A stretch of DNA of 61,066 nucleotides from Bacteroidota bacterium (GTDB lineage: Bacteria > Bacteroidota > Bacteroidia > Chitinophagales > Saprospiraceae). The DNA lies in assembly GCA_009908745.1 (NCBI GenBank), contig JAAAOU010000337.1:1-61066 (forward strand), written 5' to 3'. The notes under the pieces were generated by a model, which was not told the DNA's origin, ran no database searches, and was given only the letters and a program-made list of their open reading frames with translations. A program made the translations under genes and the position numbers. Below, in pieces: positions 14,757 to 40,212 of the stretch. Each line of letters starts with the position of its first letter. Within the stretch, counting starts at the first letter, position 1.

Positions 14757-15206
14757 CTATTTGAAATCCACCAAATCAATCTCAAAAATCAAAACGGAGC
14801 CAGCCGGAATCGTACCCACGGACTGATTGCCATAACCTAGGTTGGAAGGGCTGTACAGCGTGATCACGCCTTCTTTCCCAATCAGCGGGATACCGATCTG
14901 CCAGGCGGGGATCAGGTCTTCCAGCGGGAAAGTAACGGTAGCGTTGCCTTGTGTCTGGTCGAAGACCTGGCCGTCGAGCAGCGATCCTTTGTAGCGCACC
15001 GTCACGGAGTCACTAAGGGTGGGGCGGTCGTTGGAGCCGGCTTCCTCAATATTGTAATACAGGCCTGTTTCATGCCGGTCGGCAGTCAGGTTGTTTTCGG
15101 TTAGGTAGTCGAGGATTTTCTCTTCGTCGGTGCGCTCGTCGGTATCTTTGTTGCAGGCGGCTAGGGCGAGGCCTAATAGTAGGGTTAGCATCAACTTTAG
15201 CTTCAT
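14757..15206 (-). CDS. FKBP-type peptidyl-prolyl isomerase lipoprotein
   Basis: 149 aa from the ATG at 15206; the longer open frame upstream is not coding-like. The signal peptide MKLKLMLTLLLGLALAAC gives a lipoprotein. A short charged segment is followed by one FKBP domain (about 60-149) with VTVRYKGSLLDGQVFDQT, a PAWQIGIPLIGKEG loop and GYGNQSVGTIPAGSVLIFEI. FKBPs speed cis-trans isomerisation of Pro bonds in folding proteins; here in the periplasm. Its 3' end abuts REP array 2, so the REP hairpin may act at the mRNA end. Confidence 0.93.
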   Translation of the reverse strand: MKLKLMLTLLLGLALAACNKDTDERTDEEKILDYLTENNLTADRHETGLYYNIEEAGSNDRPTLSDSVTVRYKGSLLDGQVFDQTQGNATVTFPLEDLIPAWQIGIPLIGKEGVITLYSPSNLGYGNQSVGTIPAGSVLIFEIDLVDFK

Positions 15207-15498
15207 CTTCGGGTATTTTGTTTTTGCAAAAGTAGGGAAAACAGGGGGAAACTTATTGTTATGATTGGTTGCGAGCTGTGGGGGCGTTTTTTTTTGAAAC
15301 ACATAGGTACATATAGGCACATAGGGCATATACGGCTTGTAAGCAGCGCCGCTGTTGCGGCAAGGTAGGGCTAGTGGGGGTGCAAGCTATGATGAGCAGG
15401 AGAGGGTGTCTCCCAGCCTACGCTCGCTCCGCCCGAGCCATGCCCTGTATGACTTTTGCATTTTGCAGTTTGGCGGTTCTACATTTTGCAGTTTTTCT
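15207..15498. other. Intergenic region with short AT-rich repeats
   Basis: About 290 bases between the UbiD-type gene and the FKBP gene (both minus strand). It holds short repeats such as ACATAGGTACATATAGG / ACATAGGGC near 15300 and two copies of CATTTTGCAGTTT near 15458 and 15481, plus a small palindrome at GCGCCGCTGTTGCGGC near 15345. No gene or clear promoter was found. Confidence 0.45.
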
Positions 15499-37368: not shown

Positions 37369-38097
37369 CTATTTTCCCCATTTGTGCAATTGGTTGACGA
37401 CCGCCCTGAAGTCTTTGGGCAGCGGAGCTTCAACGGACAGGCGCTCCTGCGTGGCAGGATGCTGTAACGATAGCTGCCAAGCGTGCAGGCACAACCTTGA
37501 CATAAGCGGGCGCTCTTCTTTGTCTTTGCCTAGGCGGTAATGGCGTTGCTTGATTTCCGAAAGGTAGAAAGCGGTGCGTCGGCCATAGCGCTCGTCCACG
37601 GCTAAGGGGTAACCCATAGACTCGGCGTGTACCCGGATTTGGTGCTGCCGGCCCGTTTCTATGGTGAAGGCGACCAAGCTGAAGCGTTGGAAAACCTCTA
37701 CCAGCCGATAGTGCGTGACCGCCCGTTTGCCTTTCTTGGCGACCATCATCCGCCCGGCTTTACCCGGGTGCTCGATCAGAGGGCGGTCAATCGTCCCTTC
37801 TTCCTGATGCAGCTGCCCGTCGAGCAGTGCCAAGTACGTTTTTTCCACGGTCCGCTCTTGGAATTGCTGCGACAAATGGCGGTGGGTATGCTCGTCCCGG
37901 GCAAAGACGATTGCCCCCGAAGTCTCCCGGTCAATACGGTGTACCGTCCATACCTTCTCGTATTTGCGGTTGAGCATCGTCAGCAAGTTGGGCTTCTCTG
38001 GGCTGAAACGGTCCGGTATGCTGAGCACGCCCGGCGCTTTGTTCACCACCACCAGCTGTTCGTCCTCGTGCAGCAGTTCGAGTTTGTGTTTAGGCAT
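37369..38097 (-). CDS. RluA-family pseudouridine synthase
   Basis: 242 aa. No S4 domain; the catalytic Asp motif is VHRIDRETSGAIVFA (Asp in HRIDRETSG), with VNKAPGVLSIPDR at the start and TIETGRQHQIRVHAESMG in the middle. Such enzymes convert uridine to pseudouridine in rRNA or tRNA. The target cannot be deduced. It follows ribF-GT by 6 bases on the same strand, so they are probably co-transcribed. Confidence 0.92.
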   Translation of the reverse strand: MPKHKLELLHEDEQLVVVNKAPGVLSIPDRFSPEKPNLLTMLNRKYEKVWTVHRIDRETSGAIVFARDEHTHRHLSQQFQERTVEKTYLALLDGQLHQEEGTIDRPLIEHPGKAGRMMVAKKGKRAVTHYRLVEVFQRFSLVAFTIETGRQHQIRVHAESMGYPLAVDERYGRRTAFYLSEIKQRHYRLGKDKEERPLMSRLCLHAWQLSLQHPATQERLSVEAPLPKDFRAVVNQLHKWGK

Positions 38098-38103
38098 CTT
38101 CTA

Positions 38104-40104
38104 TTACAAGTTTTTGAACCGCCGCTTGCCAAGCGCGTAGTACTGCCAGACAATACTGCCAGAGTAGCGGCCGCTAGAGGTATTGGGTACGTTGCTGATA
38201 CTGACCTTCTGCACCAGCTCAGCGACTTGCCGCCGCTTGCGCAGTACAGCCTTGAAATTTGGGAAAAAGTCGTAGTGGGCACGGACAATGGAACGGATAT
38301 GAGCCAGCTTACCCTGCACGAGAAAAAGTACGCCTGCCAGGCCATCGAGCAGCAGACGCAGCGGCAGTATCCAAAGCAGCCGACGGCGCTCCTCGTTTTT
38401 GACCAAGGTGTACAGACTGTTGCGGAAGTTCAGGTAAGCTTTGCGTGGCGTATTGTAATCCAGTGTGCCACCGCCTACATGGTATACTACCGACCGGGGC
38501 CGTGCCATGACCTTATACCCCGACCGCTTGATCCGCCAGCAGAGGTCAATTTCCTCCGAGTGCGCAAAGTAGTCGCCGTCAAAGCCCCCCAATTCATGGA
38601 AAAGCTTGCTGCGCACCAAAAAAGCGGCGCCGGTAGCCCAAAATACCTCCTGCAATTCGTCGTACTGCCCTTCATCCTCTTCCGTCTCGGCAAAGATACG
38701 GCCCCGGCAAAATGGGTAGCCGAGGTTGTCCAGCCAACCGCCCGCCGCGCCGGCGTACTCAAAGCAATGCGGCTGGTGATAGGCCAAGATTTTAGGCTGG
38801 CAGGCCCCCACGGTCTTGTCACGCTCCATCAGTTCGATCAGCGGCTGCAGCCAGCCGGGCGTGACTTTTACATCCGAATTGAGCAGTAAGTAGTACGGCG
38901 CGTCCACTTGCTTTAGAGCTTGGTTGTACCCTTCTGCGAATCCGTAATTGTGCCTGAGGTCGATGCACTGCATACCCGGGTAGTGCTCCGCCATGAAGGC
39001 AAGAGAGTCGTCTGTAGAGCCGTTGTCGGCCACTACAATCTCAAAATTGTCATAAGTCGTCTCCAACACGGTAGGCAGAAACTGCTCCAAGTAATGCCGG
39101 CCGTTGTAGTTGAGGATGACGATAGCCGTGCGGGGCGACGGGCTTATTTTTTTTTCCGTTTCATCCGCCTCCAGTTGGCTGATGATTTGTTGCGCTTCTT
39201 TACGGTCTTGCGCCAAGCGTTTAGAGAGGGCTTCGAGGTTGTCGAATTTCGCATCATCCCTAGTGCGTTTGACGAGCTCGAGTTGCAGCTTGTCGCCGTA
39301 GATGTCTTTGTCGAAGTCAAAAAGGTTGACTTCGATGGTTTTGTTGTGGTACTGTTGCAAGCTCGGGCGGTCGCCAATATAAAGCATACCGCCGTAGCGT
39401 TGCCCTTGATGGTGGGCGTATACCGCGTAGATGCCGCCGGGTGGCAATAGCTTGTGCTTGTGGGCCAGCTCCAAGTTGGCCGTAGGGAAGCCCAGGGATT
39501 TGCCGATCTTGTTGCCATGGACCACCGTGCCGGTAAGCGTGAAATAGTGCCCCATGAGCCGTTGGGCCGCATCCACGTCGCCTGCATCTAGCGCCCGGCG
39601 TATCTTAGTGGAGCTTACCGCGATGTCTTCTACCTCGTGCTGCCCGATTTCCACGACCTCATACCCGCAGTCGTCGCCATGCCATTTCAAGTAGTTGATG
39701 TCGCCCTGCCGGTTGAGGCCGAAACGGTGGTCGTAGCCGATGACGATATGCTTGGGGTGGAATTTGTCAACCAGGAACTTTTTGATGTACTCATCCGCGC
39801 TCTGCTGCGAAAACTCTACCGTAAAGGGAACTACGACCACGTTGTCAATACCGTAACGGCGCAGCAGTTGAACCTTCTCGTCTATAGTCGTGATGAGCCG
39901 CAAGGAGTCGTCCTTGGGATAGACAATAAGGCGAGGATGCGGGTGGAAGGTCACAACGATACTTTCGCCATCGTGCTGCTTGGCCAATTGCTTGACGCGG
40001 TTGAGTATCTGTTGATGCCCCTGATGCACCCCGTCAAACGAGCCGATGGTCAGCACAGCGTTCTGAAAATCCGGTAAGTCAGTAAGGTCGTTGAATACTC
40101 TCAT
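38104..40104 (-). CDS. ribF: Fusion of RibF (riboflavin kinase/FAD synthetase) with a family 2 glycosyltransferase
   Basis: 666 aa from the ATG at 40104 (MRVFNDLTDLP); an earlier TTG-type start adds 8 residues. Residues 1-about 310 are a complete RibF: FAD synthetase domain with TIGSFDGVHQGHQQIL, TFHPHPR and AVSSTKIRRAL, then riboflavin kinase with GNKIGKSLGFPTANL, GIYAVYAH and IEVNLFDFDKDIYGD. RibF makes FMN and FAD. Residues about 328-666 are a GT2 glycosyltransferase: TAIVILNYNGRHYL, VVADNGSTDDS, LLLNSDVKV and HSEEIDLCWRIKRSG, with a hydrophobic C-terminal patch. The join (about residue 317-320) is GAA AAA AAA ATA, a run of nine A. One A fewer gives TAA. See findings. Confidence 0.85.
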   Translation of the reverse strand: MRVFNDLTDLPDFQNAVLTIGSFDGVHQGHQQILNRVKQLAKQHDGESIVVTFHPHPRLIVYPKDDSLRLITTIDEKVQLLRRYGIDNVVVVPFTVEFSQQSADEYIKKFLVDKFHPKHIVIGYDHRFGLNRQGDINYLKWHGDDCGYEVVEIGQHEVEDIAVSSTKIRRALDAGDVDAAQRLMGHYFTLTGTVVHGNKIGKSLGFPTANLELAHKHKLLPPGGIYAVYAHHQGQRYGGMLYIGDRPSLQQYHNKTIEVNLFDFDKDIYGDKLQLELVKRTRDDAKFDNLEALSKRLAQDRKEAQQIISQLEADETEKKISPSPRTAIVILNYNGRHYLEQFLPTVLETTYDNFEIVVADNGSTDDSLAFMAEHYPGMQCIDLRHNYGFAEGYNQALKQVDAPYYLLLNSDVKVTPGWLQPLIELMERDKTVGACQPKILAYHQPHCFEYAGAAGGWLDNLGYPFCRGRIFAETEEDEGQYDELQEVFWATGAAFLVRSKLFHELGGFDGDYFAHSEEIDLCWRIKRSGYKVMARPRSVVYHVGGGTLDYNTPRKAYLNFRNSLYTLVKNEERRRLLWILPLRLLLDGLAGVLFLVQGKLAHIRSIVRAHYDFFPNFKAVLRKRRQVAELVQKVSISNVPNTSSGRYSGSIVWQYYALGKRRFKNL
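39147..39155 (-). other. A9 tract at the RibF/GT2 junction
   Basis: Nine T on the plus strand, so nine A in the coding strand, exactly between the two domains. Removing one A puts TAA directly after the run in the RibF frame. In a second frame, ATGAAACGG starts immediately before the run. Confidence 0.85.
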
Positions 40105-40212
40105 CGTCGGTGTAAAGGGATAAACCAAGCTTAAAACTGTTCAGTGCCTTTAATTGTTTGTAGTTTTGTAGTAGCGAAAGTCATATTCAATCTAAATCTA
40201 AACTAGCGATAC

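Follow-up and report, generated by a model that had tools for sequence, protein, structure and literature searches.

The textbook gene for slippage is dnaX. In Thermus thermophilus this gene has nine A on its coding strand, from which come a truncated, complete N-terminal protein and the full-length one (PMC5009743, PMC3711429, PMC1088944; statements on published work here and below refer to the excerpts of these papers that were available). The commonest slip reported for Thermus dnaX is +1 (PMC5009743). Transcriptional slippage, or realignment, is described for homopolymers of eight or more nucleotides (PMC3711429), and the RNA-DNA hybrid in RNA polymerase is 9-10 bp long (PMC5009743), which matches the length of the run treated here.

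This study concerns an A9 run in the window, which is the whole stretch of 61,066 nucleotides from a member of the Saprospiraceae that was analysed. The run lies inside a single ORF, at the junction between RibF and a glycosyltransferase of family 2 (GT2). RibF is an essential cofactor enzyme. Like dnaX of T. thermophilus, the RibF-GT2 gene has its nine A on the coding strand and would give a truncated, complete N-terminal protein together with a full-length one. It differs in that two unrelated enzymes are combined in the long product and that only some lineages have the run. Slippage as a mechanism is already known; the RibF-GT2 gene as a case, its recurrence, and the presence of both frame states in one family are new to the literature searched. 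That search covered open-licence papers only and found nothing on the RibF-GT2 gene or on slippage in Saprospiraceae.

Methods

The RibF-GT2 junction was inspected individually in 202 loci. The first 127 were mostly the best-scoring matches of the family and are a non-random sample, to which 40 of the 52 genomes with two matches, five other loci and 30 more distant genomes were added. The other five loci of one of these sets, which hold a single part each, were left out of the 202, and many lower-scoring genomes of the family lie outside the junction comparison. Locus L322, in which most of RibF is missing, is told apart from the 202. The "clade of 8" refers to the tract-bearing loci nearest the window. 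For the codon shuffle, codons were redrawn within each linker according to that gene's own codon usage, so that the amino acids were preserved.

The dnaX set consists of 28 complete ORFs, 4 from the genus of the window and 24 from a set of 30 further genomes, the remaining 6 having no match at E <= 1e-70. The window's own dnaX, a partial match (L340, E 4.5e-122), and genome G003, in which no dnaX match passed the cut-off, are outside the 28.

Results

The listed version of the RibF-GT2 ORF opens at a TTG at 40128; the ORF ends with a stop at 38104, and its reading frame is open across the A9 run (Table 1). The RibF part contains both an FAD synthetase domain (PF06574, residues 14-167) and a riboflavin kinase domain (PF01687, residues 184-307), and it scores 263.2 bits with the NCBIfam equivalog TIGR00083 (cut-off 184.35). 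The assignment of the second part to glycosyltransferase family 2 comes from 85.9 bits with its Pfam domain (gathering cut-off 23.3). In an AlphaFold model of the fusion (mean pLDDT 86.2, pTM 0.55) the last helix of RibF covers residues 290-315, GT2 begins at the strand at 326, and linker residues 315-321, which contain the run, have pLDDT below 50. According to the model, then, the run is in the linker between two finished, well-predicted domains. The RNA pseudouridylate synthase gene that follows is probably the next gene of the same operon.

Table 1. Features of the RibF-GT2 locus, in positions of the window.
Feature	Position	Strand	Basis or remark
RibF-GT2 fusion ORF, 666 aa	38104..40104	minus	ATG at 40104; full-length in-frame relatives
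RibF part, residues 1-310	39175..40104	minus	domain matches
ATG of ATG AAA CGG, toward GT2 with 7 or 10 A	39162..39164	minus	weakly conserved
A9 run, putatively slippery (nine T on plus strand)	39147..39155	minus	sequence; recurrence in relatives
TAA directly 3' of run, reached with 8 or 11 A	39144..39146	minus	RibF ends at 319-320 aa
GT2 part, residues 326-666	38107..39129	minus	Glycos_transf_2 PF00535 at 328-436; model
RNA pseudouridylate synthase gene (PF00849)	37369..38097	minus	starts 6 nt past the stop of the fusion

The plus strand at the junction is gggcttaTTTTTTTTTccgtttcatcc and the coding strand reads GAA AAA AAA ATA, so that the nine A span bases 2-3 of E317, K318, K319 and base 1 of I320. 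An earlier note on this DNA had placed the A9 exactly at the RibF/GT2 junction with a TAA directly after it in a shifted frame, and the sequence confirms this. Its two predictions on changed run lengths hold in silico as well. With eight A, RibF ends after 319 aa (...DETEKK) at the TAA. The ATG AAA CGG upstream of the run, which is one base off the GT2 frame, enters that frame with 7 or 10 A. Nine A give the 666 aa fusion, 11 A give 320 aa, 10 A give a RibF of 351 aa with a 32-residue tail and 7 A give 350 aa. A homopolymer of at least eight nucleotides is present at the frame transition (nine in the window and 9-11 in 34 of the 202 loci), and the alternative frame has a defined second product, a complete RibF with an immediate stop.

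A match to the fusion at E <= 1e-80 was present in 360 of the 398 family genomes sampled, and no match spanning both parts was among those listed for 23 order-level genomes (G036-G058). RibF and GT2 are fused in frame in 156 of the 202 loci, have their parts in different frames in 40, and share a frame with an intervening stop in 6. Junction runs of at least nine A are distributed over these classes as 29 of 156, 5 of 40 and none of 6, respectively, and in 22 of the 34, 4-11 nt separate the end of the run from the GT2 reference point that follows. In the first sample, such a run was found in the linker of 27 of 124 fused loci compared with 1 of 2820 linker-sized segments taken from other parts of the genes of the first 127 loci (Fisher p 1e-37, a value that ignores the relatedness of the loci and is overstated for that reason). 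Outside the linker, all 202 genes together contain two homopolymers of at least nine nucleotides. The run lengths among the fused loci are 6 (20 loci), 7 (8), 8 (7), 9 (10) and 10 (19), with none above 10, i.e. a dip at 7-8 and a peak at 10. Genes with 50-70% GC carry 9-10 A in 11 of 49 cases and 7-8 A in 2 of 49.

The possibility that long A runs are common background was rejected, as they are rare on the coding strand. A scan of ORFs of at least 120 aa covered the window and a 400 kb portion of the related genome G001 that does not contain that genome's RibF-GT2 or dnaX genes (407,092 coding nt in total), and detected two coding-strand runs of at least nine A. Both are in the window, one at the RibF-GT2 junction and the other in the probable 5' leader of ORF 14757-15329. 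The ORF with this second A9, on the minus strand, probably encodes a lipoprotein. The run is close to its beginning; translation more likely starts from a later ATG, ahead of a stretch that resembles a signal peptide, which would probably put the run in the 5' leader. Two T9 runs and one C14 were also found in the scan, the C14 being 15 nt into ORF L275:18347-19999 of G001, a possible phase-variable gene.

The RibF-GT2 linker of L234 is enlarged by tandem GGTGGACGG-like repeats and that of L237 by a GC-rich inverted repeat, and both fusions remain in frame. In the genus code g58, RibF and GT2 are separated by a gap of about 150-480 nt in 5 of 6 examined loci (L248, L251, L254, L256, L259), of which L248 has short tandem repeats in the gap; the gap in L253 is 31 nt.

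The position of the run in a linker raises the question of whether slippage occurs there and is simply tolerated, a frameshift being harmless to RibF and long A runs not being purged. Linkers do vary freely (EKKI, KKKM, KKKS and EKKN in different relatives) and contain many Lys and Glu residues, from which some of the enrichment for A runs is to be expected. The codon shuffle produced runs of at least nine A in 11.1 loci on average, about 11 of the 29 observed. Furthermore, 127 of the 156 fused loci have no run of at least nine, including L012 from the genus of the window; among the more distant fused loci the run is rarer (2 of 30). On the tree, which was made with FastTree only and in which long branches meet, run presence needs 18 changes, at least 13 of them forced by starred branches, compared with 31.8 in shuffles. 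However, the 29 loci exceed the maximum of 19 reached in 2000 shuffle trials, and unselected slippage does not predict the dip in run length at 7-8 and the peak at 10. It also leaves unexplained the out-of-frame group described below, which needs a slip to express an intact GT2. Finally, it accords poorly with the clade of 8, in which the two adjacent invariant Lys within the run are encoded by AAA in 8 of 8 loci while other Lys codons drift. Slippage without selection is thus a doubtful explanation of the run, though one that deserves some weight.

The clade of 8 has 16 invariant Lys columns, of which 14 mix AAA and AAG, and a single codon is kept at only 39 of 359 invariant residues. In the n-1 frame, all eight loci have a stop codon, variously TAA, TAG or TGA, immediately 3' of the run. 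KKK triplets consist entirely of AAA in 15 of 22 cases in linkers vs 0 of 7 elsewhere. Among the 29 in-frame loci the run occupies all three codon phases (11, 11 and 7 loci), so it is the DNA and not the peptide that is kept. Of the two shifted frames, one meets a stop within 24 nt in 27 of the 29 in-frame tract loci vs 69 of the 127 fused loci without a run, although in the latter the distance was counted from an arbitrary point. The codon retention in the clade and the excess over the shuffle point to a run kept by selection where it is present, while its absence from 127 of 156 fused loci suggests that a two-product output is not needed by all.

Five loci with A10-A11 are out of frame, namely L228, L229 and L230 (genus code g86), L232 (g17) and L235 (g95), so that homologues exist in both frame states, 29 in frame and 5 out. 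In these five, RibF stops soon after the run and GT2 is intact, and one added A would join the frames into a product of 666-672 aa that ends at a stop. No ATG, GTG or TTG start for GT2 was found in L228, L232 and L235 between the run and 60 nt into the domain, and in L229 and L230 the only candidate in the same interval is a TTG 24 nt past the run. Judged from these sequences, only a slip would make the fusion in the five loci. Errors could account for L232 and L235, which are single assemblies, but less easily for the group formed by L228-L230 and L322. L322 is from a further g86 genome and has A10, stop and spacing as in L229 and L230, its RibF being cut by the contig end. Seven of the nine g86 genomes have a match, four with an out-of-frame A10 and three (L068, L074, L075) with an in-frame fusion and no run. 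The other three g17 loci (L022, L081, L084) are in frame with the run present, and the other two of g95 (L231, L241) are separate genes without a run. These mixed frame states inside single genera suggest that the long product is DNA-encoded in some members and made by a slip in others.

The earlier note had also likened the junction to Thermus dnaX, and two sets of sequences bear out the likeness: A9 is present in dnaX in 4 of 4 complete genes from the genus of the window, and runs of 9-10 A are found repeatedly at the junction across the family. Across the family, 26 of the 28 complete dnaX ORFs have A9 or A10 (all except L362 and L367), at about codon 380-440 of the open frame (L336-L339, L344-L361, L363-L366). 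A stop in the n+1 frame ends 6-7 nt past the run in 25 of these 26. The dnaX run was present in 7 of 7 genomes without a RibF-GT2 run and in 19 of 21 with one. Since dnaX and the RibF-GT2 junction share the same two run lengths, A9-A10 slippage is probably routine in the family. dnaX of the Saprospiraceae is a candidate for a family-wide, Thermus-like slippage site. Saprospiraceae were not met with in the excerpted literature found on dnaX slippage (PMC3711429).

The same two proteins could be made by the ribosome, by frameshifting or sliding on the A run, with no slippage of the polymerase. Each run contains A7 heptamers suited to -1 shifting, and ribosomes of Escherichia coli slide on A runs of similar order (PMC4363877). 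The five out-of-frame loci need one added nucleotide in the RNA, which is equivalent to a -1 ribosomal shift, and the n+1-frame stops in dnaX would likewise be reached by such a shift. A precedent is E. coli dnaX, where a -1 ribosomal frameshift at an A-rich site also leads to a shorter product. There, however, the shift at A_AAA_AAG makes use of a stem-loop and an SD-like element (PMC3711429), whereas no such structure and no constant SD-like word were found for RibF-GT2. No stem-loop was detected 3' of the run (mean z +0.06 in 34 loci vs -0.59 in 40 drawn controls), SD-like words occur upstream in only 10 of the 34, and neither stimulator is consistent across these loci. Additionally, a run of 9-10 is longer than a heptamer requires, and a -1 ribosomal shift does not lead into the n-1 frame, where the clade of the window has its adjacent stop. 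The presence of both frame states among homologues is akin to a mark of transcriptional realignment given in PMC3711429. Ribosomal frameshifting is therefore considered an unlikely source of the two products.

A homopolymer error in sequencing or assembly, which would leave RibF and GT2 as separate genes in the organism and which the earlier note had named as the alternative, was rejected as the cause of the fusion and is highly improbable, since despite the nine identical bases and the 46 of 202 loci that are not fused in frame, the fusion is conserved in 156 of 202 loci, 127 of them without a run of at least nine, and near relatives with 9 or 10 A are in frame without exception.

Discussion

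The data presented in this study make programmed slippage at the A9 run, giving both RibF and the RibF-GT2 fusion, the best reading of this locus and a likely one on sequence evidence. In the proposed mechanism the slipping enzyme would most likely be RNA polymerase, which would add or drop A's on the run and thereby create a mixture of mRNAs from one gene. Transcripts with 9 A (or 9+3k) would encode the fusion, and those with 8 or 11 A would bring the ribosome to the TAA directly after the run, yielding a complete RibF of 319-320 aa. With 10 or 7 A in the transcript, RibF would carry about 32 extra residues as a tail. In relatives whose DNA is in the other frame, the same slippage would produce the fusion instead. 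Our confidence is slightly lowered because the +1 product in the window carries a tail, clean RibF being reached there by -1 or +2 only, and because ribosomal frameshifting fits dnaX equally well. We infer that slippage takes place in vivo, that it happens during transcription and not on the ribosome, and that the cell has a use for each of the two products. Free RibF could serve FMN and FAD synthesis while other RibF molecules are tethered to GT2; that tethering RibF at the site of GT2 is the reason for keeping both forms is a guess.

A broader model can be proposed for the family, and in our judgement the case for it is evenly balanced. The A9-A10 junction run of the Saprospiraceae may act as a slippage switch, neutral as to frame, by which the proportions of free FAD synthetase and RibF-GT2 are set. 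Lineages would slide between encoding the fusion in DNA and making RibF by slippage, encoding RibF in DNA and making the fusion by slippage, and having plain fusions or separate genes. If this is true, a programmed slippage site exists in a core metabolic enzyme, and its gain, loss and change of frame can be traced across dozens of genomes.

The earlier note had proposed three products from one gene, i.e. RibF alone, the fusion and a separate GT2. The sequences are consistent with the first two, and the third fared poorly. The upstream ATG in the shifted frame is present in 2 of the 8 clade tract loci (L001, L009), and L008, L013, L014 and L037 instead have an in-frame ATG that overlaps the end of the run; free GT2 may be a possible third product, tentatively, and is not conserved. 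The note had also asked whether relatives keep the run, and had stated that fused relatives without one would count against slippage. Both outcomes occur, since 9-11 A are kept in 34 of 202 loci and the majority of fused loci, L012 among them, lack the run. We read these run-less relatives as lineage-wise gain and loss and not as a refutation, since where the run is present it has withstood codon drift, and since out-of-frame relatives carry it. Read more strictly, they could partly refute the idea that free RibF is needed.

Six of the seven conserved slippage cases in PMC1088944 are IS elements, which suggests, as far as the excerpt goes, that conserved slippage sites outside mobile elements are few. 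Slippage of the truncation type was described there as hard to find by comparison. For RibF-GT2, comparison does point to a truncation-type site, in a cofactor enzyme and with both frame states among relatives. If slippage is confirmed as the mechanism, it would be wrong to annotate this gene either as a single invariable protein or as two genes split by a frameshift, and the family would provide a natural series for studying why cells want both products and how sites of this kind originate and are lost.

Other described systems share individual features with the junction. Some dnaX genes consist of two ORFs and carry about 10 A; there, too, the DNA of homologues is out of frame and the long form depends on a slip (PMC3711429), but RibF-GT2 shows both states within one family and even within single genus codes. 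The pgk-tim frameshift fusion makes a free enzyme and a bifunctional fusion from adjacent ORFs, as proposed here for RibF-GT2, although the genes differ (PMC4256274). A further parallel is tssM, where a slip on A11 gives the long form of tssM1 in Citrobacter rodentium and a slip gives the short form of tssM3 in Yersinia pseudotuberculosis (PMC4256274); as with RibF-GT2, one gene family has two frame states and two length variants per gene. The tssM genes encode a secretion component that was tested at the bench in two species, whereas RibF-GT2 is a metabolic enzyme for which comparative evidence comes from many species.
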